The position numbers and the translations under genes are program-made. A stretch of DNA of 64,000 bases from Fulvivirga sp. M361 (GTDB lineage Bacteria; Bacteroidota; Bacteroidia; Cytophagales; Cyclobacteriaceae), in the NCBI RefSeq assembly GCF_007097395.1, contig NZ_VKDC01000028.1:1-64000 (forward strand). The letters are read 5' to 3'. The number at the start of each line of letters is the position of its first letter. Position 1 is the first letter of the stretch. Positions 2,088 to 19,258 of this stretch are shown in pieces. The notes under the pieces were generated by a model. That model was not told where the DNA came from, made no database searches, and saw only the letters and a program-made list of their open reading frames with translations.

Positions 2088-2100
2088 GCAACTATGTTGC
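2088..2100. promoter_or_regulatory. palindromic operator upstream of lanthipeptide precursor
   Basis: GCAAC-TAT-GTTGC is a perfect 5+5 inverted repeat. The same palindrome with a different 3-nt spacer occurs at 11314-11326, and a one-mismatch copy at 18405-18417, all in front of genes of the same locus. It lies about 100 nt before the precursor start codon. A second palindrome, GTTGCAAC, lies downstream at 2135-2142. Likely the binding site of a dimeric repressor; the Fur-family regulator at 18780-19205 is the local candidate (inference). Confidence 0.7.
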
Positions 2101-2127
2101 TTTTGGTGTGTCAATTGAGTATATATG
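2097..2127 (+). promoter_or_regulatory. predicted promoter of lanthipeptide precursor
   Basis: TTGC at 2097-2100 is the right arm of the operator and would serve as the -33 element. After a 19-nt spacer comes TATATATG at 2120-2127, one mismatch from the Bacteroidota -7 consensus TAnnTTTG. The same arrangement with the same spacing is seen at the TonB receptor promoter, which makes it more credible. Binding of a repressor here would block sigma contact. Confidence 0.55.
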
Positions 2128-2199
2128 TGATACTGTTGCAACGGTAAAGGGTATGCTGAAAACCTTCAACAGAGTAGGCATCATTTTAAATTTTTTCTT

Positions 2200-2397
2200 A
2201 TGAAAAATCTGAATAGTAAACTCAGTATCGAAGAATTAAAAGTGCAAAGCTTCGTTACAAGTATTGACGAAGAAAAAGCTCAGAAGATTCTTGGTGGAGC
2301 TGCCAGTCACCCCACTCACACTGAGGAAACCGACACACATGAAACTTGTACTTGCGATAATGGTAATCATGACCATGATCACTTCATAGCTGGTTAG
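2200..2397 (+). CDS. class I lanthipeptide precursor with His/Asp-rich core
   Basis: A 65-residue peptide. Residues 1-33 form a leader with ELKVQSFVTS, a motif of Bacteroidota class I lanthipeptide (pinensin-like) leaders, and end in a double-glycine site, KILGG. The predicted 32-residue core has one Ser and six Thr that could be dehydrated, but only two Cys, in a TCTC pair, so at most two (methyl)lanthionine rings. The core also has six His, including the run HDHDH near the C-terminus, and several Asp/Glu. Such composition is unusual for a membrane-active lantibiotic and suggests metal binding (inference). The gene faces the biosynthetic operon tail-to-tail and has its own operator and promoter. 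The C39 exporter at 9084-11264 would cut after GG. Confidence 0.88.
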   Translation: MKNLNSKLSIEELKVQSFVTSIDEEKAQKILGGAASHPTHTEETDTHETCTCDNGNHDHDHFIAG

Positions 2398-2408
2398 TCG
2401 GGCGAAAA

Positions 2409-4301
2409 TCAGCAGGCGGAGGTATTTCCGTCTGCTTTAATTATACCTGCTTTGAGGTACTCTTCGATCTGCAAAGCCAGGAATTTTTCACATTGCGTAA
2501 ATGAAAACTGATCAAAAACGCTGCTGTGGAAATCGTTGAGCAATTCCTGAAAAGTCCTGTTCTCACATTGCTCAATGGTTGTCAATAGTTTGCAGCCAAA
2601 AGGTTCCAAGGCATATTCTTCCACACCGTACCTTCTTTTGACGATGAGGCAGGGGTTTTCACTGTCCTTAGCAATAATTTTCACATAGTCATTTAAGGAA
2701 AGTGTCGAGTCGCTGTAATTCATAGAGGTAGGCATACCCATAACCTGTTGATAAGCCCTCCATAAAAATTCAAAGGAAGGTTTTTCTAATTCCAGTTTGA
2801 GCTTCTCATTCTCGATGACAAACTGGTTTTTGGCTTCATTTTGAACTTCTTCTGACGTTCCGATGTGGTCACTGATTTTTTGAATAGTTGAATGAAGGGA
2901 TTCATCCACATTATCAAAGAGCGGTAGGCCTGAACACGAGGCCAGCGTATTTGGGAAATAACGCTTGACGATCTTTCGTTTTATTGCTGAAATTGTGGGG
3001 GTGTTTTTGATTACATATTCAGGAGGTTTCGTGACGGCGGGTAATAAAGGATCATTGGGACTTTCCGGTTTCAACAAACGAAGCAAACAATATCCTATTC
3101 CCAATTGTCCCATGAATATGGACTGATCAGGTTTATTGATATCCCAACCTGAAGGCAAATACCCTAACCTTGCCCTAAGGAGCATGGCGTCCCGGATGAC
3201 CTTGAACGCCTCTAGTGTCAGTTCTTTATTGTTTAACACAGCCCCTCCGTAGGCTAATAAATAACTTAAAGAGGCATGTCCGTTCGTAACAGTGAAATTG
3301 GCTGTTTTTTTATCGGAGTATTTACGAACAGCATGTTCAATTACCTTTAAAGCTTCTTTCTTATATTCAGGTTGATGCGTCAAAACATACGCCCTTAACC
3401 TGGTCATGGCTATGCCCAGGCCACCATGGGCCCAACCATTTACTTCTTCACCCCGCATGAGGTCTTCTACGTTTGACACTAAATTAGGCTGCTCCAGTTT
3501 TTTGGGATGAATACGGAAATCCGGCCATGTCTTAAAATCTTCCGAGTAATGCTGGCTTTCATATTGGTAGGCCTGTTCACCTAACCATGACAAACCGGAA
3601 GATTGATGTGCATTTGCGAGTTCTAACAAGACAAATCCAATGCCTGCAGCTCCATGTGAAAAACCACAAAGGCTGTCAATAAAGTTGGGGCGGTACCTCC
3701 ACTTTATGCCTTGGTTGGAGAGAAAAGTATTATCAATCAGGTCGTTTACGCATTCTAAAAACAGGTCCCTGATCCATAACTCCCCACTGGCCTGGTATGC
3801 TTTATCCAGGACCAGTAAATTTCCTGCATTACCACTTAGTAGATCATCGCTGTAATGATCCTTGAAATACCTCTTATTTTGAGAGAGGAAAGATATAGCA
3901 TGTTCGCGGTACTTCTCTTCTTCTGTAATTTCATACATGCAGGCCAATACATAAATTAAACCGGATTTACCTGTATATAAAGCCGTGTGCGAGTTCAAGT
4001 CCTGGTTTACTTGCTTTATTAACCATTCTGTGGTTGTTACGGCCAGGTTTAAGTAAACCTCATCCTGATTATAGTAATACACCGCTAACAAGTAAAGAAT
4101 GATGCCGGCATTCCCCTTATAGATGGTAGTATCTGCGTTATAATAGCTTTTATTATGGTCGGCTTTATTCGGTTCCAGCGTTTTCCAGTAAGTAAGTTTA
4201 CCTTCATAAATGCATTCCTGCATCAGGTTCTCATTCAATTGTTGCAACCAATGATCAAGGTTTTTTTGCTGGCTCAGATTCAGGTGTGGATGCATCTTCA
4301 A
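2409..4301 (-). CDS. LanC-like lanthionine cyclase with C-terminal extension, zinc ligands absent
   Basis: A 630-residue protein. Residues about 50-410 show LanC-type helical repeats with the GxxG motifs KGNAG (62-66), SGNAG (156-160), GFSHGAAG (213-220) and GQLGIG (398-403). In NisC and the LanM cyclase domain, zinc is held by a Cys in WCxG and a Cys-His pair in CHG. Here the equivalents read GWAHGGLG (289-296, Ala at the Cys position) and VTNGHAS (338-344, Thr-Asn at the Cys-His position). All three ligands therefore seem to be missing, as in class III enzymes. The last ~200 residues are extra. Residues about 540-625 resemble a PqqD-like leader-binding fold (low certainty). It is the last gene of the leftward operon. 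Its start overlaps the upstream gene by 47 nt, and M27 (4223) is an alternative start. Confidence 0.8.
   Translation of the reverse strand: MKMHPHLNLSQQKNLDHWLQQLNENLMQECIYEGKLTYWKTLEPNKADHNKSYYNADTTIYKGNAGIILYLLAVYYYNQDEVYLNLAVTTTEWLIKQVNQDLNSHTALYTGKSGLIYVLACMYEITEEEKYREHAISFLSQNKRYFKDHYSDDLLSGNAGNLLVLDKAYQASGELWIRDLFLECVNDLIDNTFLSNQGIKWRYRPNFIDSLCGFSHGAAGIGFVLLELANAHQSSGLSWLGEQAYQYESQHYSEDFKTWPDFRIHPKKLEQPNLVSNVEDLMRGEEVNGWAHGGLGIAMTRLRAYVLTHQPEYKKEALKVIEHAVRKYSDKKTANFTVTNGHASLSYLLAYGGAVLNNKELTLEAFKVIRDAMLLRARLGYLPSGWDINKPDQSIFMGQLGIGYCLLRLLKPESPNDPLLPAVTKPPEYVIKNTPTISAIKRKIVKRYFPNTLASCSGLPLFDNVDESLHSTIQKISDHIGTSEEVQNEAKNQFVIENEKLKLELEKPSFEFLWRAYQQVMGMPTSMNYSDSTLSLNDYVKIIAKDSENPCLIVKRRYGVEEYALEPFGCKLLTTIEQCENRTFQELLNDFHSSVFDQFSFTQCEKFLALQIEEYLKAGIIKADGNTSAC
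2412..2442. terminator. bidirectional terminator between precursor and lanC-like gene
   Basis: GCAGGCGGA (2412-2420), a 6-nt loop and TCCGTCTGC (2427-2435) form a 9-bp stem with one G-T pair, followed by TTTAATT on the plus strand and, on the minus strand, TGATTTTC. It lies 15 nt after the precursor stop and directly abuts the minus-strand stop codon at 2409-2411, so it can end both converging transcripts. Confidence 0.65.
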
Positions 4302-5118
4302 TGGTTCGTTTTAAAAGGTAGGCTAAGAAAGCTTCATCGTAATTTTTAACACCTAAGCGATTATTGGTCATGTGGATCAGGCTCTCTAAAATGCGATGGA
4401 ACCTGGATTCGTATCCTACTGATCTAAAAAGATCTGATAATATGTTTTTATTTCCCCTTATCCAGGTGTCTAACCAGGAGATCCCGGTTTCCTCATTTGC
4501 TTCTATCCGTTTGTTAACCTCTCCGAATAAGGCTTTTTGTGGCATCCTTTGATATTCAGGCTCATAATGCTTAAAAGCCACCTCTCTGAAGTTTGTGCCT
4601 GCTTCAGATAATCCGCTATGAGGAAACCAACTTTGGACATATGAATCATACAATCTATGTATTTCCACTGTAGATAAGTTAGAAACTGCTATCATACAAA
4701 AGTGCAATAGCAATGCCCGGGACAGCACATCTTCAGGCTGTTCTGTCAGTACAGTAAGGCATACTTTTGAAGACAGCACAAAGTGTGCTTCTGCGAAAGG
4801 TAAAGCAGTGGTGCCGCCATAACGTTCCGTTTCCGGGTGGTAAGCCATTTCCCGAAGTTCAAAGTCATTGGTACCGAAATAACTCCTGCATGTAGCGTCA
4901 ATAATTTTACCTAATGTAGTTTGTTTTTTATGCGTACTTAAAATGCGGAGCCGGATATGTGGCCCTTCTTCATTGTATCGAATGTAGAAAAATTGTTGGA
5001 TACCTAATTTCGCTTTTAATTCTTCAATAAGTGGGACAATGGCTTTTTGCAGGAAAACATCCCGATCATCTTCGAAAAAGATATGATAAGAAAGCCAGTT
5101 TTCTGAATTATTCATCAT
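4255..5118 (-). CDS. LanB C-terminal (glutamate elimination) domain protein, SpaB_C type
   Basis: A 287-residue protein that matches the thiopeptide-type bacteriocin biosynthesis (SpaB C-terminal) domain. It opens with NWLSYHIFFED and continues with FFYIRYNEEGPHIRLRI (about 42-58), the signature of this domain. In class I lanthipeptide synthesis this half removes glutamate from glutamylated Ser/Thr to leave dehydro residues. In nisin-type LanB it is fused to the glutamylation domain; here it is a separate gene, as in thiopeptide clusters. Its start overlaps the end of the glutamylation-domain gene by 11 nt, so the two are probably translationally coupled and act as a complex. Product class is secure; precise catalytic residues were not checked. 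Confidence 0.85.
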   Translation of the reverse strand: MMNNSENWLSYHIFFEDDRDVFLQKAIVPLIEELKAKLGIQQFFYIRYNEEGPHIRLRILSTHKKQTTLGKIIDATCRSYFGTNDFELREMAYHPETERYGGTTALPFAEAHFVLSSKVCLTVLTEQPEDVLSRALLLHFCMIAVSNLSTVEIHRLYDSYVQSWFPHSGLSEAGTNFREVAFKHYEPEYQRMPQKALFGEVNKRIEANEETGISWLDTWIRGNKNILSDLFRSVGYESRFHRILESLIHMTNNRLGVKNYDEAFLAYLLKRTIEDASTPESEPAKKP

Positions 5119-7798
5119 ACCACTGAATTAGCGATTCAGATACTTTGTCTGATTCCATATGTTCAGGAGCAGGTAACATTTCCTCTATGCGTAAGTATTT
5201 CCCTGCTTTGCGGCAGGCCTTCCGAAAGAGTCTGACCAGAAGCGGTGATTGAAAATCTATGTATTGCGGTTTATAATCGTCCTGGGTGGATGCATTGCTT
5301 TCCGACCGATTGGAAGGATTAATAAAAAGGAAACTATGACGGGGGATCTGGTAGTACGTTCTCCAATGTTCTACTTTGATAAAATAATCAAAATCTGAAA
5401 CAGCAGGCTCATCTTCAGGTAAACATGTTAGGGGTATTTTCCAGCATTCCCTGGATAGGACCAATACTTCATCTATTGAAATTCTTGGGAACCTGACCAC
5501 TTCGTCGGGAGAATGATTCTGTTCTATAAACTCGTATACCCAGTTTTGTAATGTATATACACTAATAGGTTTTGAAGGGGAAAATAAGGTAAGGAGTTGG
5601 TATAGCTCGGAACGTGTGGAGTTAGTCTGTAAACAAAGGTCAAACGGAAGTATTTCCTTTCCGGTGGGCTGATGAATTAGTTTTAAGTCTTCACCTGCTT
5701 TTTTTACAACAATATCCGTAAGTGCAATTTGATGGGGCAAAGGTAAATCTGCATTTCCGCCTGGAATGACAATTTCATACGGCATTAAAGGGGGATGAAT
5801 GTTGGCATTGAAGCAAGAAGCATCTTTAATTTCAGCGGCAAAAAAACCTTCGAATAACTGTTCATTTATTTCACGTGTTTTTTCAGTGATTTTATCCGGA
5901 AACAAATGAAGGAAGCGACCATAACCGCGTCCATAACCATTAAAAATACCGTTGACCACGGCATGATAGGTGTCCTTATGGTGTGGTTTATAAAGCTGAA
6001 GATGAGCAGCTTTAGAATACGGTTTGTTCAGGTTGGTATCAATTCCAAAAATGTTGGAAATTTCAGATTCGCTGAAATTTAATCCGGTTGGGTGAGTAAA
6101 TTCTCTCGTACCGAGCAGCGTAAATAATTTCTGTTTACTAACTTTTTTAATCCTGTTGCCAAGGTTTTCCTGGTCTTTTAAGATTTGGCTGAACTCCGAA
6201 TTAAGTACCCCGGAAGAAACTTTCTGTCGTTTAACCTTTTTTTCATTTTTTCGGTGTTGAGAATAAAACTGCCGATAGAAATCTATCAGTGGCACCTCGT
6301 TAGTTTTTTCATAATGATGATCGAAAAAAGACAATAGCTTGTACTTTTCTTGAAGGTAGGAATTTGCAGAAAGTAAAGTTGTATATACAGTATTTAACCT
6401 TTCGACCAATGTCTTCAGATCATTGTCAGTAAAGTTTTGAGGAACGGTGGTATGGGCATCTTCGTAAAAAATATTTTCCACCGTAAAATAAAAACCATTA
6501 AAATACCTGATAACGAAAGTGCTATTTTCATCAATACGTTCAAGAAACTCTTTTTTAGCTTTTTGTCTGTCCAACCCTTCCGTAAATGGAAGGTGATGTT
6601 TCTGACAGAATTTGCGTATGCTTTCTTTGAGTTGCAGGTAGGATGCTTGTAGAACTTCATTTCGTGAAGGAATATCAGCCTCTTCCAGTTTTTTTGCTGC
6701 TACGAGAAGTTTCTGTAAACACTCTTTCAACAGAATGACATTGCTGTTTTTTTTGCTCAATTTTTCCAAAAAAACAATGAATTTACCTGCCCATAGCGGA
6801 TCTGTACCGGATATTCCAATATGAGGAGTTAGTAGTCCTATTTCTATGAGTTTCATCAAATATTTTTCAAGTTCCTCCGGTGAAGTTTCCGGGTACTTGA
6901 GAAGTAATAAGCGGATGATCTCATCAATGCTCTTAGGCGTTTCGATCAACTCAATCGTAAGGTCGGTTACGTTGCTATGCGATACATTTTGAAAGACTTC
7001 AACATTATTGAAGTTGATCAGAAAATCATAGTGTGAATCAGTTGCCTTGAATGTCGGGTTTAAGGCTAATGGAATTTGCTTTAAAATATCAGGGACCTGA
7101 AATAATAATCCTTTCAGGTAAGAGAAAATGTAGTTGTTCAGTCTTACGTGGACTTTACTCTTGTTATGGTCTCCTGTTTGGCCTGACACTGCAAGGTAAG
7201 TAAAACGGCTAAAGGGAGAAGTTTTGGCATACTGACGGGTAATATACTTTATCAAGGAATATTCTGTCTGTACTTGTGTCTTTTTTAACGTTGCTGAATG
7301 AACATTTAAATAAGGGAAAAGCTGATCAAACAGGGATTGGGAAGAGATCTGTAATGATTTTTGAAATTCTACATTCCTACGGATCATGTTCCTGAAATTG
7401 TTGCGTATCCGTTCCATGCCGGCAGTATACTGAGCAGCACTTTGTTCATAAAGCAAATGTCGCCTTGTATACTCCTCCTGGTAATTGTCAAAAAGCGGAA
7501 TTTCCTCCTCATTCAGATAGGACCCGATAAGCTTTATTTCTTTAGACTTCAATGGTCGGAGGTTGTGTATGGCCCTTTTACCGTTTAGAAGCTTGTTCCT
7601 CACTTTTGCATCCGAGCATTGATTGATCTTTTTAAACAGGACATCTGTCAATTTACTTTTTGACTGTGCTAGCTTTTCATAGGTTATACTTGTTTGCTCT
7701 ATTAGATAAAGTAACTCTTTTGGGTGAAGGGCGTCCAGTTCAGAAAAGCTGGAGGAAGAAATTCTGTGGAAAATTACGGGATACAATTTTAGCATCAT
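5108..7798 (-). CDS. lantibiotic dehydratase, glutamylation domain (split LanB)
   Basis: An 896-residue protein with the lantibiotic dehydratase N-terminal organisation. KTSPFSRFT at about 192-200 is the conserved KTSPF motif. Family members transfer glutamate from glutamyl-tRNA to Ser/Thr of the precursor. The C-terminal elimination domain found in full-length LanB of about 1000 residues is missing and is encoded by the next gene. Leader recognition normally sits within this domain. The gene follows the membrane fusion protein gene after 8 nt and overlaps the next gene by 11 nt, so it is in one operon. M2 (7795) is an alternative start. Confidence 0.88.
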   Translation of the reverse strand: MMLKLYPVIFHRISSSSFSELDALHPKELLYLIEQTSITYEKLAQSKSKLTDVLFKKINQCSDAKVRNKLLNGKRAIHNLRPLKSKEIKLIGSYLNEEEIPLFDNYQEEYTRRHLLYEQSAAQYTAGMERIRNNFRNMIRRNVEFQKSLQISSQSLFDQLFPYLNVHSATLKKTQVQTEYSLIKYITRQYAKTSPFSRFTYLAVSGQTGDHNKSKVHVRLNNYIFSYLKGLLFQVPDILKQIPLALNPTFKATDSHYDFLINFNNVEVFQNVSHSNVTDLTIELIETPKSIDEIIRLLLLKYPETSPEELEKYLMKLIEIGLLTPHIGISGTDPLWAGKFIVFLEKLSKKNSNVILLKECLQKLLVAAKKLEEADIPSRNEVLQASYLQLKESIRKFCQKHHLPFTEGLDRQKAKKEFLERIDENSTFVIRYFNGFYFTVENIFYEDAHTTVPQNFTDNDLKTLVERLNTVYTTLLSANSYLQEKYKLLSFFDHHYEKTNEVPLIDFYRQFYSQHRKNEKKVKRQKVSSGVLNSEFSQILKDQENLGNRIKKVSKQKLFTLLGTREFTHPTGLNFSESEISNIFGIDTNLNKPYSKAAHLQLYKPHHKDTYHAVVNGIFNGYGRGYGRFLHLFPDKITEKTREINEQLFEGFFAAEIKDASCFNANIHPPLMPYEIVIPGGNADLPLPHQIALTDIVVKKAGEDLKLIHQPTGKEILPFDLCLQTNSTRSELYQLLTLFSPSKPISVYTLQNWVYEFIEQNHSPDEVVRFPRISIDEVLVLSRECWKIPLTCLPEDEPAVSDFDYFIKVEHWRTYYQIPRHSFLFINPSNRSESNASTQDDYKPQYIDFQSPLLVRLFRKACRKAGKYLRIEEMLPAPEHMESDKVSESLIQWYDE

Positions 7799-7806
7799 TC
7801 AGGGGG

Positions 7807-9087
7807 TTATGAGTTTAAATTTTTATCGAATAAGCTTCTTAAGTGGCCAAAAATTCTTTGTAGCAGGCTTAGATTATCTGTAATAATTTGGGCTGACCCA
7901 CTCAGGTGTTGTTTAAACGGGATGGCACGATCATACGAAGTGATGAGACGGGCCGGTAATTCCACGGAAACGAGGTAATGCCCCTGACTGGGTACTAGTG
8001 AAACATTTTTTACAGTGCCATAAAGTGTACCGTATTCATGATAGGGGTAGTTATCTAAGCGAATGGTTACTTTCTGATCAGGTTTTATTTTTCCGGATCC
8101 GCTGACGGGTAATTCCACCCTTCCTACAAAAGACCCCGAATTGGGAACTACAGAAAGCAAAGGTTCATCAGCAGACAGATACTGATTTTCACTAAATTTT
8201 TTTAAATAGGAAACCTGGCCGGAAATAGGTGCTCTTAGAAGGTATTTCTGCTCCCATGCTGCTATTGCTGCCATCATACGCTTAATCGATCCGCTTAAAC
8301 GTAAACGTGTATTGTACAAATCATCTGAGAGTACTTGTTGCGAATTGATCTGCTCTTTAATAAGCTGCTGTTTTTGTAAATCATTACGATGGATCTCAAG
8401 AAAAATATCTTCGAGGTCTTTCTTTCTGCGCAACCATTCCAATTCAGAATCTTCAAAATCCTGGTCACTTATGATTTTTTTAGCAAACAGTTTTTTTTGC
8501 CTCTCATACGCCTTATCAACGATTACTTTTTCTTCCTCTAAAATGACTTTTTTGCTTTCCAAAACCGCGTTCAGATCTTCCAACTTATTGATTTGGAACC
8601 TTAAATTATCTTCTGTTTTCTTGGGATAGGATGTTTTTGTGAGGTACTGATACTCATAATAATTTTCTGTCATCTCGGAATGTGGTTCTTGTAATTCACC
8701 CAAAATCAGAGTGGCATTAAGCCGCTCCAGGTGATTAAATTCCTGTTCGTTCATTCCTTCGTTTAACACCTCTTTTAAGGCTAACACATCCTCTAACTTA
8801 GCAGGGTTTAATATCTGTCCCAGTAGCTCTCTTTTTTTTACAATGGCTCCTTCCGGAGCAGAAGGAACAAAAATGCCCGAATGCCTTACGGTAATATTCA
8901 CGGGAGGAAGGTCGGTAGCAATATCTATTCGTGCGCTCAACACCGTCGGGTATTTGATAAAAGCTGCAAGTAGTAAGAACAAAAGGACCACAAAGCTCAA
9001 TAAAGTGATTCCCCATCGTTCATACCAGGAAGGTATCACTTCAATCATTTCTTCTAACCGATAAAATTCTTCCGCTCTTGAGTTCAT
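7807..9087 (-). CDS. HlyD-family membrane fusion protein of lanthipeptide exporter
   Basis: A 426-residue protein with a short cytosolic N-terminus, one membrane span at about 27-45, a lipoyl-like segment, a long coiled-coil hairpin at about 160-290 rich in Glu, Lys and Gln, and a beta-barrel part near 300-400. This is the layout of HlyD-type periplasmic adaptors that work with peptidase-containing ABC exporters. It shares ATGA with the end of the exporter gene (4-nt overlap), so it is co-translated with it. It should link the inner-membrane exporter to an outer-membrane channel; no TolC-like gene is in the window. Confidence 0.88.
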   Translation of the reverse strand: MNSRAEEFYRLEEMIEVIPSWYERWGITLLSFVVLLFLLLAAFIKYPTVLSARIDIATDLPPVNITVRHSGIFVPSAPEGAIVKKRELLGQILNPAKLEDVLALKEVLNEGMNEQEFNHLERLNATLILGELQEPHSEMTENYYEYQYLTKTSYPKKTEDNLRFQINKLEDLNAVLESKKVILEEEKVIVDKAYERQKKLFAKKIISDQDFEDSELEWLRRKKDLEDIFLEIHRNDLQKQQLIKEQINSQQVLSDDLYNTRLRLSGSIKRMMAAIAAWEQKYLLRAPISGQVSYLKKFSENQYLSADEPLLSVVPNSGSFVGRVELPVSGSGKIKPDQKVTIRLDNYPYHEYGTLYGTVKNVSLVPSQGHYLVSVELPARLITSYDRAIPFKQHLSGSAQIITDNLSLLQRIFGHLRSLFDKNLNS

Positions 9088-11264: not shown

Positions 11265-11286
11265 GACTACAAACGCAAGCTAATTG

Positions 11287-11317
11287 CAATTATGGCAAAC
11301 TATTAATATTATTGCAA
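11287..11317 (-). promoter_or_regulatory. weak predicted promoter of lanthipeptide biosynthesis operon
   Basis: On the minus strand TTGC (11317-11314), one arm of the operator, is followed after 19 nt by CATAATTG (11294-11287), which matches TAnnTTTG with two mismatches. The spacing equals that at the other two operator promoters. The -7 match alone would not be convincing. Confidence 0.35.
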
Positions 11318-11326
11318 CAGTGTTGC
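11314..11326. promoter_or_regulatory. palindromic operator between divergent operons
   Basis: GCAAC-AGT-GTTGC is a perfect inverted repeat, with arms identical to those at 2088-2100. It lies in the 92-bp gap between the exporter start (11264) and the start of the rightward operon (11357), so one regulator could control both. Confidence 0.7.
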
Positions 11327-11356: not shown

Positions 11357-11815
11357 ATGAAAAAAGGACCTCCATTAATTGTTTCATTATTCACTTTATG
11401 GCTGTCCACCACTCGCAAAACCAAGGATAATAGTCTGAGATACGTGCCCGAACAAATACAATTACAGAAGCTTATAGGAACCTGGGGGATAGGTGCAAAC
11501 GGAACGGTTAACCGAGACGATGAGTCGTTGGATAAATGGAATGATTCTACCTGGACTTTTACAGACCTGACTATTCGCGCCATGAATACGGACCCTATTG
11601 TTTGGCTTGAAAGCGATTCACGGAGCTTTGTGTCCAGTAACCTTAACCGGATTCAACGGGCAGATGGGCCAGTCGTCAATATTTCTGTTTCGGACGACTC
11701 CCTGACAAAGGATTTTAAGCTCGAGGAAAGCACCGAAAATGGTAGAGCAGAAGGCGTATCAGGTAATGATCACAGAAACTATAGAAAACAATATAAAAAC
11801 TTTAAATATATATGA
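11357..11815 (+). CDS. small lipocalin-like protein, first gene of surface-protein operon
   Basis: A 152-residue protein with no certain family. The N-terminus is hydrophobic (PLIVSLFTLWLS) but without a convincing cleavage site or lipobox. The middle, LIGTWGIGANGTV to WTFTDLT and a later NISVSDDSLTKDF, resembles the beta-strand pattern of lipocalin-like domains common in Bacteroidota secreted proteins (weak recognition). The last ~25 residues are polar and seem disordered. Its stop overlaps the next start as ATGA (11812-11815), so the genes are translationally coupled. Placed next to the operator, it is likely controlled with the lanthipeptide genes. Confidence 0.6.
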   Translation: MKKGPPLIVSLFTLWLSTTRKTKDNSLRYVPEQIQLQKLIGTWGIGANGTVNRDDESLDKWNDSTWTFTDLTIRAMNTDPIVWLESDSRSFVSSNLNRIQRADGPVVNISVSDDSLTKDFKLEESTENGRAEGVSGNDHRNYRKQYKNFKYI

Positions 11816-13971
11816 TCGAATTTTTACTTCTAAACTGTAAAATCAAGAAACAACTTATACCAGTAACGTTTCTCTGGCTTTCAGCCATTAGCGTGCATGC
11901 CCAAGAACTTACCTGGACATGGCAAAATCCGTTCCCTTCCGGGAACAGCCATTCTGATGTAGCCTGGATAGATGATCAAACTCTATATGTTTCGGGAACC
12001 AAGGGGCAATTTTTGCGATCAGCAGATTTTGGAACGACCTGGGAAACATCCAATATTCCTACAACTGCCAGGGTAAGAGAAATTCACTTCATCAATGCGA
12101 GTAAAGGCTGGGCTGCTACGAACGAAGGTGAAATATGGCATACTACCGATAGGGGTACTACCTGGACGCTACAATTTGAAGATGCCTCAGGCCCAGAGCT
12201 ACAAGATATTCATTTTTACGATGAAAATACCGGCTATGCCGTAGGGCATGCCGGCTTTGCAGAAAATGTCCTTTTCAGAACGGCCGATGGCGGAGGAAAT
12301 TGGGAGAAGGCTGACTTGCCCATCCGGGCCGGAGCGTCATTTTACGGAATGTTCTTTGTCGAAGCTATCAACGCGGATACCGTGTTTAGTGCCGGTTATG
12401 ATAATACTTTTTTCAGTAGTTTTGATGGCGGTGTAAATTGGGATACCACCCACCTGCCGTTATCTACCGGGGGGTTCTATGAAGGCGGAGATTTTGTAAA
12501 TGATAGTACCGGTTTTCTGGTTGGCCCTGACGCTTATATCTTAAAAACTGTCGATTATGGTAAATCATGGGAAACAACGACGGTTAATGCAGATTTAGAC
12601 GAGCAAAATGAGCATTGGTTTTCGGAAGTATTTTTTCTAAACGAGAATACGGGATGGGTGAGCAGCTTCGGTTGCCTCTACAAGACTGCGGATGGTGGAG
12701 TTAATTGGAGCCGTACCTGTGAAGGAACTTATGGCACCGGTCGCAAATCATTTATACAGTTTAATGCTCAAAATCAGGGTATTGCGGTTGCCGGGATGGA
12801 GATTTATACTACCAATGATGGTACCACCTTTGACCTGGTATTACCTGTAGATCCTGTAAACACCTGGAATGCCATAGATGAGGTGGCAGGAGAGTTGTTT
12901 GTGTCAGGAAGTGGAGGAGAGGTTTTTCATTCTACCAATGACGGGCGGGATTGGGATATTATATCTACACCGACCGCTTCCACGCTGACTGACATAAGTT
13001 TTATTGACGAAAATAACGGCTGGGTAGTGGGGAGAGATAGCACCGTGCTCAAAACAAGTGATGGAGGAGCAACCTGGCAGGCTTTGGATACTGATTATAC
13101 GGGTAATTTTAACGGAATTTATGCCTGGAATAACACAGATGCCGTAGTGGTAGGAAACGCAGGAGCTGTATTTAAAACCACAAATGGTGGTACGGACTGG
13201 ACACAGGCGACGATCGATACCGAAAATAATATTAATGCTGTACATTTCGCCAGTGCAACTACGGGTTATGTGGTGGGCAGGTCAGGTCTGGTGGCTGCAA
13301 CGACCGACGGTGGTTTGACCTGGACGATTCAGGATGCCGGAGTCCTTTCCCACTTAAACGATGTGTTTTTTATTAATGAAACTACAGGTTATGCTGTAGG
13401 GAACTCCGGGCAAATCTTGTTTACCGACAATGGAGGAACCACATGGACACCACAAGTGAGTGGTCAATCTTCCAGGTTAAATTCCGGTTTCTTTTTAGAT
13501 GCCAATAATGGCTTTGTCACTGGGAGTGGTTTTGTTTTGGTTACAGAAGATGGTGGTCTTACATGGGAAGAGCAGGATACTCCTTCGGGGAATTCGCTAA
13601 ACGATATACTGTTCATTGCACCTGATAAAGGTTGGGCAGTAGGCTCCAATGGCAACGTTTTATATTTTGGTGAAGATCTTGATGCGGTTACTTCAATTTT
13701 ATTCCCGTTTGAAAAAGAAAGTTCGGTAGCCAAAGTATTTCCTAATCCTGTCTCTTATCAGACTACCTTTGCTTTACCCTCTTCTTTCAATGGAAAAGGA
13801 ACATTGCAGGTATTTCACCTCTCTGGCCAACTGATTTACACGGAAGAACTTTTCTTTGTAGCAGGGCAAGGCCAGTGGGTTGTGCACCCCAGTTTAGAGA
13901 ATGGAGTATATGCTTTTCAGCTTATGGCCGGTAGCCAGGTTAGAAGTGGTAAAGTGCTGATTCGCAAATAA
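11812..13971 (+). CDS. secreted YCF48/BNR-repeat beta-propeller protein with T9SS sorting domain
   Basis: A 719-residue protein with a signal peptide ending near SVHAQ (about residue 31). It then has many repeats of the form DGGTTW/DGGLTW, each preceded by a GYAVG- or GWAVG-like strand, typical of YCF48/BNR beta-propellers. Around residue 640 begins a T9SS type A sorting domain, marked by VFPNPV and ending GKVLIRK. The propeller suggests binding of a protein or ligand at the cell surface; no catalytic residue is apparent. The ATGA overlap with the upstream gene and a 13-nt gap to the next gene place it mid-operon. Confidence 0.88.
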   Translation: MIEFLLLNCKIKKQLIPVTFLWLSAISVHAQELTWTWQNPFPSGNSHSDVAWIDDQTLYVSGTKGQFLRSADFGTTWETSNIPTTARVREIHFINASKGWAATNEGEIWHTTDRGTTWTLQFEDASGPELQDIHFYDENTGYAVGHAGFAENVLFRTADGGGNWEKADLPIRAGASFYGMFFVEAINADTVFSAGYDNTFFSSFDGGVNWDTTHLPLSTGGFYEGGDFVNDSTGFLVGPDAYILKTVDYGKSWETTTVNADLDEQNEHWFSEVFFLNENTGWVSSFGCLYKTADGGVNWSRTCEGTYGTGRKSFIQFNAQNQGIAVAGMEIYTTNDGTTFDLVLPVDPVNTWNAIDEVAGELFVSGSGGEVFHSTNDGRDWDIISTPTASTLTDISFIDENNGWVVGRDSTVLKTSDGGATWQALDTDYTGNFNGIYAWNNTDAVVVGNAGAVFKTTNGGTDWTQATIDTENNINAVHFASATTGYVVGRSGLVAATTDGGLTWTIQDAGVLSHLNDVFFINETTGYAVGNSGQILFTDNGGTTWTPQVSGQSSRLNSGFFLDANNGFVTGSGFVLVTEDGGLTWEEQDTPSGNSLNDILFIAPDKGWAVGSNGNVLYFGEDLDAVTSILFPFEKESSVAKVFPNPVSYQTTFALPSSFNGKGTLQVFHLSGQLIYTEELFFVAGQGQWVVHPSLENGVYAFQLMAGSQVRSGKVLIRK

Positions 13972-13984
13972 AAATATTGGAGGG

Positions 13985-14926
13985 ATGATCAGACAGTTAA
14001 TTTGTGTTGGTGCAATAGTCTTGATAACACCTTTGCTATATGCTCAGGAGATCGATACTTTGTCTAACATACCAGACGGTAATACACTTTACTCCCCGGA
14101 ATATAGTGGTCCGGGGCAGTGGGGGTATGTATTAGGCCAAAATTCATCTTTCCGGCAACAATTCGCTGAAAAATATGATATAGAAGGGGAGGCAATCGTC
14201 AAAGGACTGATCGTTCATTTGAATGGTACTTATGAGAACCCCGAAAATTATGTGGAATTCAATGTATATCAGGTAGCCTCTAACGGATTACCCGGCTCAC
14301 GTATTGGAGGGAGGCAACTTTTTTATAAAGACTTGGATCTCTCCGGTAATGCGATGACCGTTACTTTCGCTTCTCCATTACCGGTAGCCAATTCTTTTTT
14401 TGTTACTTTCAACGTGCTGGATTATTTGCATGGCGGTTTTGAAGGGGATACCCTGGGGCTTATGGCCGGAGAGCCTGGTTCACGGCAAGAAAGTGATTTA
14501 AAAAACTTTGGTCGAAATGCTGTTCAGGCTCATAATCACGCTAGGGAGGATTGGAAGGACTTTCATACGCAGAACTTCACACCCATTGCCACTCATTTTG
14601 CTTTGTTTCCAATGGTTGAATTAGGCGGAACTATTACCGGAGTAGAACGACCACTGATGACGCAACAACAACTGACTTTATTTCCAACGTATCCTAACCC
14701 GGCCACAAATGAGTTCACGATAAACTATTCCTTGAGCAAGGCTTCAAATATTTCAATTCATATTCACGATCTGCAGGGAAGGCAGCTCTATTGGAAAAAC
14801 CTGGGAGTACAAACTGTGGGAGAGTATCAGCAAGGCATTAATATTCAAAATTTCCCCGGTGGGACTTATATCTATGGGGTTGAGTCAGACAATATGAAGC
14901 TTACAGGAAAGGTGTTCGTAAAGTGA
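13985..14926 (+). CDS. secreted T9SS cargo protein of unknown function
   Basis: A 313-residue protein. A signal peptide ends at about LLYAQ (residue 21), and a C-terminal sorting domain starts near residue 230 (LFPTYPNPATNEF) and ends TGKVFVK. The central region (about 25-215) has the strand-rich pattern of a jelly-roll domain but no family I can name. It includes a short His-containing stretch, QAHNHARED. It sits 13 nt after the propeller gene and 16 nt before the DUF4625 gene, so it is in the same operon and probably acts at the outer surface. Confidence 0.8.
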   Translation: MIRQLICVGAIVLITPLLYAQEIDTLSNIPDGNTLYSPEYSGPGQWGYVLGQNSSFRQQFAEKYDIEGEAIVKGLIVHLNGTYENPENYVEFNVYQVASNGLPGSRIGGRQLFYKDLDLSGNAMTVTFASPLPVANSFFVTFNVLDYLHGGFEGDTLGLMAGEPGSRQESDLKNFGRNAVQAHNHAREDWKDFHTQNFTPIATHFALFPMVELGGTITGVERPLMTQQQLTLFPTYPNPATNEFTINYSLSKASNISIHIHDLQGRQLYWKNLGVQTVGEYQQGINIQNFPGGTYIYGVESDNMKLTGKVFVK

Positions 14927-14942
14927 TGAAAAAGATAAAGCC

Positions 14943-15755
14943 ATGAAACATAGAAGACATACAACGATTCTAAAATGTATTCCGCTGTTTTTGTTGTGGG
15001 CCTGTACTGAGGATGGGTCTATGGAGGAAGGCCCCGATAAACAAGCCCCCCTTATCGAAGTGATTTCATCGACGCCACAGGCGGGGGAAGGTGTGATATG
15101 CGGATTCAAAGAATCAAGTGTTATTAGTGTTGCAACAGGTACTGAGCTCACCCTGAACCTTATATTTTCTGATGATCGCGACCTGTCCCAGTACAAAATT
15201 GATGTTCATAATAATTTTGACTGCCACGCACATGGAAGGACTACCTCTTCCTGGCAGATGCTTAAAATAGAAAATGTCTCAGGCAAAAAAGTGGTATTAG
15301 ATGAAGTACTTGCTGTACCGGAAGATGCTTTGGCCGGTGGCTATCATTTACAAATCCTGTGTATAGATGGGGCCGGAAATGAAGCTGAACCCATTATCTA
15401 CAGTATACAGGTAGAAAACTCTATTGATAACATACCACCGGAACTGATGCTTTCAGAACCATCTTCTGATAATTTTACTGTTTCAAAAGGTTCGGAAATC
15501 AATTTCCGGGGGACGATCAAAGATAACCATTCGTTGGGTACAGGAAAGATTGAAATCACTTACACAGATCCCGAAGGGGCTGAGTTTTTTCCGGTACAAC
15601 AAATTTTTCCCGATTCGCAGGGTGACGAAGCTACAGTTGATCTGACTTTCAAAGTACCGGATTTTGCCACCAGTGGAAAACATCAATTTGTTATCCTGGT
15701 CTATGACAGGTATAATAATTTAACAGAGAAAACGTATACCATTGATTTTCAATAA
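14943..15755 (+). CDS. DUF4625 lipoprotein
   Basis: A 270-residue lipoprotein with lipobox LLWAC, giving lipidated Cys21. Two Ig-like halves follow. The first holds HNNFDCHAHGR (residues 89-99), the typical DUF4625 motif, with His89, Cys94, His95 and His97 close together as possible metal ligands. As far as I recall, DUF4625 proteins often neighbour TonB receptors and Fur-family regulators in Bacteroidota, as here. It is the last gene of the rightward operon and ends 3 bp from the end of the converging receptor gene. A small inverted repeat, AATAAC/GTTATT at 15751-15767, spans both stops and may help end transcription. Confidence 0.82.
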   Translation: MKHRRHTTILKCIPLFLLWACTEDGSMEEGPDKQAPLIEVISSTPQAGEGVICGFKESSVISVATGTELTLNLIFSDDRDLSQYKIDVHNNFDCHAHGRTTSSWQMLKIENVSGKKVVLDEVLAVPEDALAGGYHLQILCIDGAGNEAEPIIYSIQVENSIDNIPPELMLSEPSSDNFTVSKGSEINFRGTIKDNHSLGTGKIEITYTDPEGAEFFPVQQIFPDSQGDEATVDLTFKVPDFATSGKHQFVILVYDRYNNLTEKTYTIDFQ

Positions 15756-15758
15756 CGG

Positions 15759-18137
15759 TTAGTTATTTTCCACCAGCGAGAAAGGAAATTTTAACGTTAT
15801 GTTAAAATTTCTTCCTTGCTCAGGAAGATTCAGGAGACGGTATCTGCTGAGGTGGTTCAAATAGTTGGTGTTGAATAAATTCTGAATAGAAAACATCAGT
15901 TCTATCCTCTGATTACTTATGTTAATGTCAATACCGGAAGAAAAATTCATCAGCGTATAGCCGGGAGTAGGTTCTTCGTTGCGGTCTACCCGCATCTGTG
16001 ACGCAAAGTACTGAGCAAGCACTCCCAAGTATAGATTGGAAAATATTCCTTGCAGAGGTAAATGATATTCGGCTTCTCCCAATATTGAAAGGGGAGGGGT
16101 GAAAGGTAACGCCAGTTGGGTGTTGAGGTTGTAATTCCATACATACTCCAGAGCGGTTTTTACGTGAAAACCTTTTAAAAAAGCATATTCAATGGTGGCT
16201 TCTGTACCGGTAAAAATGGCATCATCCTGACGGTAACGATAAATTTGCCCTCCCTCAGGTAAAGGGGAAAACTGAGATGTCGGACCCAGATAGATATATT
16301 GTTCAAAAAAATTGAAAAACGGTGTGAAGCTGGCATAGAACTTTTCTGTACGATAGGTGAGGTTCAGATCTGCCTGCCACCCTCTTTCCGTGTTTAATGT
16401 GCTGTCCCCGAATTCATGCCGAAAGGTACCATGGTGGATACCGTTAGCAGACAGCTCGGGAGCAGTGGGTATTTTGAAACTACTTCCCAGGTTTAATTTA
16501 GCGTTAAAGTGTTGGTGAGGGTAAAATGAAACACCCATCCCTCCGGAGAAATTAGAGAATTGCCTTTCAACGTTACCGCTTCTTGTAGAATATCCGGTAA
16601 TATTTTCCTGATCATCATAGACCGGTTCTGTATATTCTTCTATGTTTCTGTAACCATAATCGAACCTGATACCGCCATTCACCGAAGTTGTTGTATTGAT
16701 TTGATATTCTTCATGAACAAAGATACCGGCATTGCCAGAAGTAAAATCCGAAAGCAGGTATTCGAACCCGCTTCTTTCATTGAGCTGGTACTGTGTCTGG
16801 AAGCCATAGATCCTTTTGATCTTATCACTGACCTGGTGATTAAATTTGGCGTTGGCAGAAAATGTCTGTAACATAAGACCTAAAGCCAGTGTTCCTTCTG
16901 GCCTTGGCCCTTTTCCATGAGCGTGAGGGTTAGATTCTTCCCTGCGGTAGTTATTCTGGTAGCCCATGTCAAGCTCTAGCCAGTTTCTCTCAAAATGAAC
17001 AATACCATTGGCAATTATTTTAAAATGATCCGTCACCTGCCGGGGTAACGCTATGTTTCGGGTATCTCCGTCAGGTGTCAGCTGATATTCTCTTGGAATA
17101 CCCAAAGCCCCGGAGAAAAATCCGGCTTTTTGATGAAAATTGCTTACGGTGACGGTTGCTTGTCCCCAATGTTTTTCCAGGCCTGCCATGGCGGTAATAT
17201 TTCTTTCCCTGCCTGCAGTGTTTTTCAACGCCTGATCATAAATCGGTAAAACAAAGCGATTATAGGTAAAACTGTCCGCAGGCACCCGGTAGTCACCGAA
17301 GTCCTGGGTAGAAAACCTGAGCCGAAACAACTTTCCCTCTCTATTGCCCTGAAGCATAGTAGAGGTGCCGAACAGATGATTATTGTTTTTATAAGTCCCC
17401 AGAAAGCTGCCACTCAAAGTATTGGAAGGAGGCAGCGGTGCAGGTAATATATTGATCACGCCTCCCATGCCATCGGAGCCATACAAAAGGGAGGATGGGC
17501 CTTTAACGATTTCTACCCTTTCGGGAGCATACTGGTCAATCTCCAATCCGTGATCTGCCCCCCATTGCTGACCTTCCTGCTTCACCCCCTGGTCAGTGAC
17601 GATGACCCGATTAAAGCTCATTCCCCTGATCACCGGTTTGGCAATACCTACACCGGTATTGATAGCATTGACGCCCGGGACTTTCTGTAAAGCATTCACA
17701 AATGTATTACTACCACTCTTTTCCAGAAAGGAGCGGTCTACAGTCTGAACAGTCAGAGATTGTTCCTTCGGCCCGGATTTGAACAAATCAGCGTCAACCC
17801 GTACTTCCTTCAGTTGAAGTGAAGAAGGGACAAGCATGAAGTTTTCCACGAGGTTATTTCCGGCTAATGTGATCGTTTTGGTTTGGGGCTCATAGCCAAT
17901 ATGGGTGACTTGAAGGTTATGAATACCATCATTGAGTCCATTAATTTGGTATCTGCCATTAGCGTCTGTTATAGTGCCTATCCCTAGCCTTTTAACTTGA
18001 ATGGTCGCCCCTGGCACGGGTTCACCATCTGTATTTTTGATAGTCCCGCTTATTATATAGCTTTTTTGCTGGGCAAATGCCAGGAAACAGGTGCATGACC
18101 ATAGCAAAATGAAACAGACACTGTTTGGAAAATTCAT
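15759..18137 (-). CDS. TonB-dependent receptor with carboxypeptidase-regulatory-like domain
   Basis: A 792-residue outer-membrane receptor. A signal peptide ends at about AFAQ (22-23), a CarboxypepD_reg-like domain covers about 28-105, and the plug covers about 120-235, including QYAPERVEIVKGPSSLLYG (202-220). The beta-barrel fills the rest and ends in Phe-rich strands. An extracellular-loop-like segment NPHAHGKG (403-410) and IHHGTFRHEFGD further on are His-rich, as in some zinc receptors. There is no SusD partner, so a polysaccharide role is less likely. Promoter and operator lie far upstream (18379-18417), with a short open frame in between whose stop overlaps this start (ATGA). It may recapture the metal-loaded lanthipeptide (inference). 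Confidence 0.88.
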   Translation of the reverse strand: MNFPNSVCFILLWSCTCFLAFAQQKSYIISGTIKNTDGEPVPGATIQVKRLGIGTITDANGRYQINGLNDGIHNLQVTHIGYEPQTKTITLAGNNLVENFMLVPSSLQLKEVRVDADLFKSGPKEQSLTVQTVDRSFLEKSGSNTFVNALQKVPGVNAINTGVGIAKPVIRGMSFNRVIVTDQGVKQEGQQWGADHGLEIDQYAPERVEIVKGPSSLLYGSDGMGGVINILPAPLPPSNTLSGSFLGTYKNNNHLFGTSTMLQGNREGKLFRLRFSTQDFGDYRVPADSFTYNRFVLPIYDQALKNTAGRERNITAMAGLEKHWGQATVTVSNFHQKAGFFSGALGIPREYQLTPDGDTRNIALPRQVTDHFKIIANGIVHFERNWLELDMGYQNNYRREESNPHAHGKGPRPEGTLALGLMLQTFSANAKFNHQVSDKIKRIYGFQTQYQLNERSGFEYLLSDFTSGNAGIFVHEEYQINTTTSVNGGIRFDYGYRNIEEYTEPVYDDQENITGYSTRSGNVERQFSNFSGGMGVSFYPHQHFNAKLNLGSSFKIPTAPELSANGIHHGTFRHEFGDSTLNTERGWQADLNLTYRTEKFYASFTPFFNFFEQYIYLGPTSQFSPLPEGGQIYRYRQDDAIFTGTEATIEYAFLKGFHVKTALEYVWNYNLNTQLALPFTPPLSILGEAEYHLPLQGIFSNLYLGVLAQYFASQMRVDRNEEPTPGYTLMNFSSGIDINISNQRIELMFSIQNLFNTNYLNHLSRYRLLNLPEQGRNFNITLKFPFSLVENN

Positions 18138-18373
18138 TGCCGGGTGAAAACTTTCATATAGTGAAGAAATTTTTCTTTATTAACCATTTCTTTTTTCCTG
18201 CTTTCCATTTTTCTACTTGCATTTTTCATGAGTAGTGGGCTGGCCAGGTATGACGTAGCAGCATTATTGATGATTGTCGATCTGCCTGCAGCTTTAGCTC
18301 CCAATAGACCATGAATTTCTTCGATATACCAGAGGTTTTTATCATGATCTGGGATGAGTGTAGATCGCTTTAT
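18134..18373 (-). other. unrecognised short open frame in leader of TonB receptor gene
   Basis: On the minus strand a frame of 79 sense codons runs from an in-frame stop at 18374-18376 to a TGA at 18134-18136 that overlaps the receptor ATG. Its translation looks protein-like (for example NLWYIEEIHGLLGAKAAGRS, then a Lys/Glu-rich tail), but the only in-frame ATG sites are late. The first, at 18227-18229, would give 31 residues. It could be a coupled leader peptide or the remnant of a gene. I do not recognise it. Confidence 0.35.
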
Positions 18374-18378
18374 TTATA

Positions 18379-18408
18379 CAAATATACTTGTACATTCAAT
18401 AAGTGCAA
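18379..18408 (-). promoter_or_regulatory. predicted promoter of TonB receptor transcript
   Basis: On the minus strand TTGC (18408-18405), an arm of the operator, is followed after 18-19 nt by TATATTTG (18386-18379), a full match to the Bacteroidota -7 consensus TAnnTTTG. The operator thus covers the -33 element, a classic repression layout. Confidence 0.65.
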
Positions 18409-18417
18409 TAAGGTTGC
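18405..18417. promoter_or_regulatory. palindromic operator upstream of TonB receptor
   Basis: GCAAT-AAG-GTTGC is the third copy of the GCAAC-N3-GTTGC palindrome, with one mismatch in one arm but extended by a further T/A pair (TGCAAT...GTTGCA). It overlaps the predicted -33 element of the receptor promoter. Confidence 0.65.
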
Positions 18418-18779
18418 ATTTATAATTTAATTCAATAAAAAACTTCCTTGACCTAATTATTTTATTATCAATTACTCTTATTCGGGCATAAGGATTTTTA
18501 CGCGGTAAGCCGATAAATTCCTGCTACTGAAAGCATCGTTGGAAATCAGGGGTGCCAATACCAGGGAGGATACAAGGTAGATGGAAAGCTGACGGAAACT
18601 TCATGGCAAGATGCTCTTGAGACGTAGGGCTTTTTCCGTATAGAGAAGACTCTGGGAGATGAATACAGTGAAACTTACAGAATTTTAATGATATCCGGAT
18701 CAATGGTACCAAACAGTCGTTTAAGGAGCAGTAATTGATAGAGTAGAAGCACTTATGGTGATAGATTCCGGTGTTTCAG
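18418..18779. other. gene-free region between receptor promoter and Fur-family gene
   Basis: No intact gene. Plus-strand sequence at about 18560-18735 reads like decayed coding sequence (a fragment such as GYKVDGKLTETSWQDA) with internal stops. No family can be named. Confidence 0.4.
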
Positions 18780-19205
18780 TCATGCCTTGCACACCTTGCA
18801 TACGCCACCAATGGTATAGTTGATCCGGTGAACGGAAAACTCATTGGATACCTCTACTTCAGGTACTTCCACATCTTCCAGGCAATAGGTCTGGTGACAT
18901 TCATCGCATACGAAATGAGCGTGCTTATCAGTATGTGACTCGTTCACGCAATGGCTGCTGCACATCGCATACTTGATACCTTGTCTGTCTTCCGATGCGC
19001 GATGGACGATACCATGTTCCTCAAAAGAGCTTAAGGCCCGATAGATTGTTACACGGTCATGCCTGGCTGTCATTTTGGCTACAATATCGCTGGCGGAAAG
19101 TGCAACATCATGCTCCATGAATAGCTCCAGCATCTCTGTTCGGATGAACGTTTTCTTCAAACCATGTGTGTGTAGAAGATCGCCTATCGGTCCTTTGTTA
19201 TCCAT
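18780..19205 (-). CDS. Fur-family metal-responsive repressor (Fur/Zur type)
   Basis: A 141-residue protein with the Fur layout. The N-terminal winged helix has the recognition segment RHDRVTIYRALSSFEEHGIV (49-68), with TIYRAL typical of the family. The C-terminal dimerisation part has two CxxC pairs, Cys100/Cys103 and Cys136/Cys139, for structural zinc, and the metal-site cluster HTDKHAHF (91-98). Sequence alone does not settle Fe versus Zn versus peroxide sensing. Location beside a TonB receptor and DUF4625 protein favours zinc (inference). It is monocistronic, and a near-perfect palindrome at 19243-19258 lies 38 nt upstream and may serve autoregulation. Confidence 0.88.
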   Translation of the reverse strand: MDNKGPIGDLLHTHGLKKTFIRTEMLELFMEHDVALSASDIVAKMTARHDRVTIYRALSSFEEHGIVHRASEDRQGIKYAMCSSHCVNESHTDKHAHFVCDECHQTYCLEDVEVPEVEVSNEFSVHRINYTIGGVCKVCKA

Positions 19206-19242
19206 ACTTCTTTTATGACGATTTTAAACTTTAGACAATTTT

Positions 19243-19258
19243 AACGCTTGTAAGTGTT
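19243..19258. promoter_or_regulatory. palindrome in promoter region of Fur-family gene
   Basis: AACGCTT-GT-AAGTGTT is a 7+7 inverted repeat with one mismatch. On the minus strand TAAAATTG (19243-19236), one mismatch from TAnnTTTG, abuts it, so a bound protein would cover the promoter. A perfect relative, ACGCTTATAAGCGT, occurs at 22762-22775. Confidence 0.45.

Follow-up and report, generated by a model that had tools for sequence, protein, structure and literature searches.

A putative Zur-type operator joins a lanthipeptide cluster to a ZnuD-like receptor in Fulvivirga

Why does a lanthipeptide cluster stand among apparent metal-uptake genes in Fulvivirga sp. M361? The window, by which we mean the whole stretch of 64,000 nucleotides that was analyzed, is the start of contig C70 (NZ_VKDC01000028.1) of the 8.1-Mb draft genome. 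Side by side in it lie a pinensin-family class I lanthipeptide cluster, a divergent surface-protein operon with a DUF4625 gene, a ZnuD-like TonB-dependent receptor and a Fur-family gene. An earlier note on this DNA had claimed this contiguity, with the surface operon ending in the DUF4625 gene, and our gene calls agree. The best reading of function is that the locus is a Zur-type zinc-starvation regulon unit making a lanthipeptide-type zincophore, a reading to which we give a probability of about 0.55. The narrower claim, Zur-type (zinc-type) control of the lanthipeptide cluster together with the TonB receptor, is well supported by sequence comparison and very probably correct.

The palindrome and the genes beside it

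The pattern GCAAY-N3-RTTGC fits three sites of the locus. The first, GCAACTATGTTGC (2088–2100), lies ∼100 bp 5′ of the precursor ATG; the second, GCAACAGTGTTGC (11314–11326), occupies the divergent promoter between the exporter and surface operons; and the third, GCAATAAGGTTGC (18405–18417), is imperfect and lies 268 bp 5′ of the receptor ATG. The earlier note had three transcription starts sharing one 13-bp palindrome. Three promoter regions do carry it, although the third copy is imperfect and the starts were inferred rather than mapped. A short open reading frame (ORF; 18134–18304) with no Pfam match overlaps the receptor start and sits between the box and the receptor.

Taken by itself, the window proves nothing about this palindrome, because a search allowing up to three mismatches returns 16 matches against 15.4 expected, which is chance level; we therefore rejected the window palindrome as evidence on its own. 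It is the comparison across genomes that makes the palindrome real. In 18 related genomes, chosen for holding receptor or LanB matches, the perfect box occurs at 113 forward places versus 21 reversed-control places. Among 55 perfect boxes examined, hand-picked from these genomes (52) and our own (3) rather than covering all 113, 47 are either outside ORFs or no more than 60 bases from an ORF end.

The M361 genome itself holds GCAAYNNNRTTGC at 30 places, versus 17 for the reversed control. Of these, 21 are inside ORFs of at least 90 amino acids and nine are outside, where they accompany only receptors, the studied locus and one ABC-transporter locus: three are in the studied locus, three at the C59 receptor locus (a second ZnuD-like receptor with DUF4625), two at a TonB receptor locus on C83 (one of them counting as outside only when the first ATG is taken as the start of the gene) and one at the ABC-transporter locus on C127. 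At this last place (C127:278338; L122 3839–6835) the sequence reads as a box followed by a 103-amino acid His/Cys-containing protein, an ABC ATPase, a permease and an apparent truncated TonB receptor, possibly a decayed zinc-uptake operon.

Boxes also recur at receptors and in pairs, in counts and spacings that carry no shuffled control. Across 30 receptor loci, a box with at most one mismatch lies within 200 bp upstream of the receptor in 11 and just beyond the receptor end in 12, and 20 of 26 distinct box pairs within 120 bp are spaced by 37–39 bp (in G298, G006, G075, C59 and others). The window box at 11314 has a possible degenerate second copy at 11275–11287, 39 bp off. Such tandem boxes may bind paired repressor dimers.

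A Pfam scan of 20 box-neighbor proteins returned three CobW/COG0523 GTPases, three MerC proteins (one adjoining CobW and one adjoining GTP cyclohydrolase I) and three thioredoxin-reductase-like flavoproteins, together with one each of GTP cyclohydrolase I, FtsX permease, MoCF, subtilase and, below cut-off, a GreA-like protein. ZnuD-like receptors with DUF4625 carry boxes at L100 and L164. An account of Zur regulons (PMC6103462) names as their classes COG0523 proteins, GTP cyclohydrolases (folE2, ribA), TonB receptors and clusters for metallophores; the word Bacteroidetes does not appear in it. In the relatives, two recognized classes of Zur target, CobW/COG0523 and ZnuD-like receptors, thus share the operator found at the lanthipeptide cluster. 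In our reading the palindrome is a Zur-type operator, which would give this part of the Bacteroidota a candidate Zur operator. Zinc had been the first guess of the earlier note, and insofar as the guess concerns control and a zinc-type receptor partner, it is well supported by the box neighbors and by the recurrence described below.

The receptor of the window (15759–18137, minus strand) carries a CarboxypepD domain, and its nearest characterized relative is ZnuD, a zinc-piracy TonB receptor. This is its best match in the PDB (4rdr), and the ZnuD model NF038289 is its best NCBIfam model by E-value, at 127.7 bits, far below the cut-off of 950. It differs from ZnuD further in the extra CarboxypepD domain and in the DUF4625 and type IX secretion system (T9SS) proteins that flank it. 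Histidines 196, 371, 407, 568 and 569 are conserved in 26–31 of 31 receptors.

A candidate Zur, the Fur-family repressor (18780–19205, minus strand; PF01475), stands beside the receptor. Its best NCBIfam model is the Zur model PRK11639, a model built on enterobacterial Zur; the protein does not pass it (34.5 bits against a cut-off of 167). In G075 a relative of this Fur adjoins the precursor and is 42% identical, the highest value among the six Fur proteins of M361. In the regions read around the clusters of G006, G010, G298 and G416, no Fur relative was found. Adjacency of a Fur gene and the cluster, part of the earlier claim, thus stands for the window and for G075 but does not extend to those four.

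Recurrence of the boxed arrangement

The LanB search gave matches in 20 of 295 genomes of the family (the G050 fragment and the weak match in G123 were left out of the LanB comparison), and the LanC search gave matches, many of them weak, in 32 of 390 genomes of the order. Larger regions were read for eight LanC matches; four of these (G501, G596, G487 and G092), in which no LanB relative turned up, are not among the clusters counted. We count 23 class I clusters of the window LanB type, the window included, some of them cut by contig ends. Boxes occur at the precursor or at the divergent exporter/LanC promoter in six, namely the window, G006, G010, G075, G416 and G298, all of which came from the LanB or LanC searches.

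All six boxed clusters have a TonB receptor within ∼14 kb of LanB. In the 17 boxless clusters no receptor relative was found within 20 kb of LanB, as far as the contigs reach; the regions read span 29–50 kb in 13 of them and 8–20 kb in the other four (G001, G036, G033 and G076), where a missing receptor therefore says little. In boxless G184 and G014 the far edge of the region holds the start of a TonB-like ORF, ∼22–23 kb from LanB, and in G004 and G384 a box-like sequence lies inside an ORF. Ten large neighbors scanned in boxless clusters comprise FtsX/MacB transporters, kinases and other proteins.

The placement of the boxes is also conserved. A box precedes the precursor in G006, G075, G416 and G298 as well, and with one mismatch in G010, and the corresponding divergent genes of G006, G075, G010 and G416 have a box between them. 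Synthesis, export and receptor come under one operator: boxes stand at all three units in the window (the receptor's being imperfect) and in G416; G010 has them at the LanC/surface promoter and at the receptor in addition to the one-mismatch box; and G075 and G006 have them in front of the precursor and at the divergent promoter where the receptor operon begins. Surface proteins (BNR, the 313-amino acid T9SS protein and DUF4625) and a ZnuD-like receptor are found in every boxed cluster except G298. As G416 and G075 come from other families within the order, the boxed arrangement in the window, G006, G010, G075 and G416 spans three families.

The receptor of G298 passes the siderophore-type model TIGR01783 (316.7 against 223.5 bits) and has an ABC transporter alongside. 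The common element of the six clusters, as read from their sequences, is a box-controlled peptide together with a metal- or metallophore-type receptor. By the earlier note, its reading would fall if the palindrome and the receptor were absent from homologous clusters. It withstands this check: both are present in five further clusters, and 17 others of the same type have neither, hence the association marks a subset. Also in G298, next to the His-containing lanthipeptide, a divergent promoter with two boxes serves both the siderophore-type receptor and a CARME-type gene (carnosine N-methyltransferase family; L106 13135–14571) for a candidate histidine-methylating tailoring enzyme.

The histories of the parts differ. 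The LanB tree places the window with G006 and G075 (100/100) and G010 with boxless clusters (95/92), and a single clade of the six boxed clusters is weakly rejected (approximately unbiased test, p-AU 0.029). The receptor tree, built without the duplicates L009, L010, L024 and L028, also without L035–L037, and with the split G006 gene represented by its longer piece, unites the window, G055 and G010 and, separately, G006 and G075; it speaks strongly against a single clade of the five (p 1e-58). In the LanC tree the window, G006, G075 and G010 fall together (100/99, with a long-branch warning). By these trees the parts have been reassorted and the combination persists. A phylum-wide search with a precursor profile matched 2 of 395 genomes, our own and one with a weak match to the leader part, which suggests that the cluster is rare.

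The peptide and its enzymes

The precursor (2200–2397, plus strand; NF038180, E 1.3e-12) has a pinensin-type leader, a GG site and the core AASHPTHTEETDTHETCTCDNGNHDHDHFIAG; it passes the leader model NF038180 at 47.4 bits (cut-off 24). The cores of G006 (AASHPTHTEDTDTHETCTCDASKTSLEINP) and G075 (AAGHPTHTEETDKHETCTCDPGKKEALQSFRAL) are nearly identical to it, with the common stretch (S/G)HPTHTE(E/D)TD(T/K)HETCTCD, and (S/G)HPTHTE is conserved in four of the six boxed-cluster cores; the remaining cores are LHIDPSHPTHTEPSDPLHPKQCGCATTIEF in G010, LLCDTEDDAHCRKHSETHYATNADCCGAQIQ in G416 and LADDTHTTIHTKKSVDTAHCCASEIGVKLG in G298, where there is no GG and the cut point is guessed. We compared the six with 22 other pinensin-type precursors, all from 12 of the 17 boxless clusters; the remaining five yielded no precursor. 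The His fraction is higher in the boxed cores (Mann-Whitney p 9.6e-5; 3.9e-4 on per-genome means) and acidic residues are commoner (p 8.6e-4), p values that are optimistic because related sequences stand on both sides and the clusters are not independent. The motif C-x(0,1)-C occurs in 6 of 6 boxed-cluster cores versus 4 of 22. The HDHDH tail is unique to the window core: it is missing from G006, G075 and G010, which share the (S/G)HPTHTE stretch instead, and we rejected it as the metal site.

In its 5′ leader the precursor mRNA carries a conserved element, a DUF805b RNA motif (RF02914; 2146–2180, plus strand; 43.3 bits, gathering score 35.6). It appears below cut-off before the precursors of G006, G075, G010 and G298 and above cut-off before four precursors of the boxless G049 cluster, and was for this reason dismissed as a zinc-specific element. 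Among the genes that DUF805b, a cis-regulatory RNA, seems to serve are some lanthipeptide precursors of the Bacteroidota; a literature search on this RNA found no paper.

LanB is split into an elimination part (Lant_dehydr_C; 4255–5118; PF14028, E 2.8e-43) and a glutamylation part (Lant_dehydr_N; 5108–7798; PF04738, E 1.7e-30), both on the minus strand. With both domains present, it keeps 105 of 126 and 32 of 42 columns that are invariant in 12 boxless clusters. On the same strand follow an HlyD-type secretion adaptor (7807–9087; PF13437, with TIGR01843 below cut-off) and a C39 peptidase-ABC exporter (9084–11264; PF03412, PF00664 and PF00005), which would cut the precursor at GG and then export the peptide. 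In G006 the HlyD and TonB receptor genes are each in pieces (L097 1194–2473 and L096 10253–12644), through real decay or sequencing error, and the G010 cluster holds a carbamoyltransferase and a class V aminotransferase (L098 16199–17881 and L099 13463–14734) as possible extra tailoring genes.

The LanC-like protein (2409–4301, minus strand; PF05147, E 4.9e-42) is atypical. WAHG and TNGH replace the WCHG and LCHG motifs, so that the Cys-Cys-His zinc site is absent, and His216 of the SHG motif is kept. In pairwise alignments the first change coincides with the ligand position in LicM2 and in LANCL2; the second coincides with the LANCL2 CH pair and is shifted relative to LicM2. All 11 boxless LanC proteins first compared keep the WCHG and (L/V)CHG Cys-Cys-His zinc site; the triad is lost in the window, G006, G075 and G010, which retain the SHG-motif His. 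(The G014 LanC was left out of the column comparison and of the LanC tree.) The tree of the LanB N-part sets G010 apart and had suggested two independent losses; we abandoned this, since the LanC tree unites G010 with the window clade and one loss suffices.

Mutation of zinc-site residues in NisC yields inactive nisin, according to PMC7296275, which also describes class III LanKC domains that naturally have no zinc ligands. The window protein resembles these LanKC cyclase domains in this respect and differs in standing alone, in a class I cluster and in a zinc-starvation setting. The proposed mechanism admits two readings of it. By analogy with the zinc-free alternative proteins of other Zur regulons (PMC6103462), it may be a zinc-sparing cyclase that works independently of zinc; or there may be no enzymatic cyclization, in which case the cysteines would remain free thiols next to the imidazoles. 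Leader, LanB and exporter are those of a lanthipeptide cluster, as the earlier note had it; that the product is cyclized is doubtful, because this LanC has no zinc triad.

A zincophore and its rivals

We propose that when zinc falls, the Fur-family repressor would leave the GCAAC-N3-GTTGC boxes and derepress three units: the pinensin-family precursor with the dehydratase, LanC-like protein and exporter; the T9SS-exported surface proteins with the DUF4625 lipoprotein; and the ZnuD-like TonB receptor. The split LanB would dehydrate the precursor, and the C39-ABC/HlyD system would cut it at GG and export it. Outside the cell the mature peptide, with its conserved histidines (SHPTHTE..D..H) and C-x-C, would most likely bind Zn(II). 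The metal or the complex would then be captured at the surface and imported through the TonB receptor, making the peptide a lanthipeptide-type zincophore, in line with the secreted metallophore suggested in the earlier note.

Known Zur-controlled zincophores are non-ribosomal or opine-type. Coelibactin, ethylenediaminedisuccinate (EDDS) and pseudopaline (PMC6103462) likewise represent small-molecule synthesis under zinc-starvation control, pseudopaline with a TonB receptor; the molecule studied here would differ in being ribosomal and lanthipeptide-like. Pinensin-family class I lanthipeptides (NF038180) have the same leader, GG site, split LanB, LanC, C39-ABC exporter and HlyD, and the studied locus adds Zur-type boxes, a TonB receptor and surface proteins, with a short His/Cys/acidic core and a LanC without zinc ligands. 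Methanobactins are metal chelators of the ribosomally synthesized and post-translationally modified peptide (RiPP) class and are alike in that the studied peptide, too, would bind metal; bufferins (PMC12452194) offer the same likeness. Both groups are linked to copper and owe their synthesis to MNIO enzymes, not to LanB/LanC. Among the matches listed in our literature search, outside which most subscription papers lie, no zinc-, Zur- or metallophore-linked lanthipeptide was found. With somewhat less confidence than we have in the zincophore itself, we can envisage a family of RiPP zincophores induced by zinc starvation and built on lanthipeptide machinery, with a zinc-sparing LanC and with dehydrated residues beside free or rearranged His and CxC ligands, that would feed ZnuD-like or siderophore-type TonB receptors. 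If the zincophore reading is true, lanthipeptides, best known as antibiotics, would have a nutritional role, the Bacteroidota a ribosomal zincophore, a subset of their unexplored class I clusters a tie to metal supply, and LanC a natural case in which it must work without zinc.

The main rival, which we consider unlikely, is an antimicrobial or lytic lanthipeptide released on zinc starvation against competitors or to free their zinc, with the surface proteins and the receptor only taking up zinc. Antimicrobial pore-forming peptides are cationic, unlike the six boxed cores, which are short, acidic and His-rich next to other pinensin-type precursors, and G298 couples its peptide to a siderophore-type receptor. 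The window precursor does have a pinensin leader, and the antifungal pinensins are, according to PMC7268733, the sole lanthipeptides isolated from the phylum by 2020; the receptor module also occurs without the peptide, so that the functions are separable. FtsX/MacB-type transporters, possible immunity proteins, are present in three boxless clusters, from a scan that covered boxless clusters alone and hence is no test of an antimicrobial role. An alternative role as a zinc-responsive signal or as a metal buffer kept at the surface, in which the T9SS proteins or DUF4625 would bind the peptide and no import would follow, is improbable, even though the exporter and surface operons diverge from the boxed promoter in the window, G006, G075 and G416 (LanC and the surface operon in G010) and the peptide-enzyme and receptor trees disagree. 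Against such a role, G298 has a box-controlled siderophore-type receptor and no surface-module relatives were found there (surface proteins were sought in 20 kb; the 50-kb listing covers receptors and boxes).

Slightly less probable again is a box that answers iron, copper or manganese, with a peptide that chelates that metal. The ferric uptake regulator that best matches the window Fur in the PDB, the siderophore family of the G298 receptor and a His/CxC set that would also suit copper all speak for it; against it stand the CobW/COG0523 and ZnuD-like neighbors of the box and the window receptor itself, nearest to ZnuD. We give very little credence to chance, that is, to an ordinary lanthipeptide cluster that landed next to a zinc-uptake locus. 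The transposase remnant left of the precursor (776–1531) would suit such an event, but conservation largely refutes it: the like boxed arrangement recurs in G006, G010, G075 and G416, and LanB and TonB genes of differing histories have been brought together.

Several observations weigh against the zincophore reading and its Zur-type operator. Box enrichment is weak or absent in some genomes (3 versus 3 in G092; 3 versus 2 in G007). Among the scanned box neighbors, 6 of 20 match no family, the subtilase, MoCF and FtsX have no zinc link, and the GTP cyclohydrolase is of the PF01227 type, not folE2. The best PDB match of the window Fur is a ferric uptake regulator, with a Zur second, and its HxHFxCxxC motif is common to three other Fur proteins of the genome (four of six in all). 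The LanC zinc triad is intact in boxed G416 and G298, and besides G075, 9 of 28 other LanC-search loci, mostly distant and with no box shown controlling them, lack part of it, so that the loss does not occur in every boxed cluster and is not confined to boxed clusters. The LanB and TonB trees disagree, which means that peptide and receptor have not stayed paired. Finally, G055, whose receptor is 81% identical to that of the window, carries a boxed BNR-T9SS-DUF4625-TonB locus and has neither LanB nor LanC in the surrounding 59 kb; in Dawidia soli the surface-receptor module likewise occurs, with no lanthipeptide genes in 21 kb. The receptor module can therefore stand without the peptide; such modules may take up complexes of foreign origin, or the receptor may work without the peptide.

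The surface operon begins with a 152-amino acid protein without a Pfam match (11357–11815, plus strand), which has relatives at the same place in G006, G010 and Dawidia soli. It continues on the same strand with a secreted Ycf48/BNR-repeat protein bearing a T9SS sorting domain (11812–13971; PF14870, TIGR04183), a 313-amino acid T9SS-sorted protein (13985–14926; TIGR04183) and the DUF4625 protein, which has a lipoprotein-like start (14943–15755; PF15418, E 1e-31). In the 313-amino acid protein, H149, H183, H185 and H204 are invariant in six relatives; its structure prediction has a mean predicted local distance difference test (pLDDT) score of 59. At the other edge of the locus, the C-terminal end of the transposase part (776–1531) weakly matches, below cut-off, a calcineurin-like phosphoesterase C-terminal domain and is possibly an insertion fusion.

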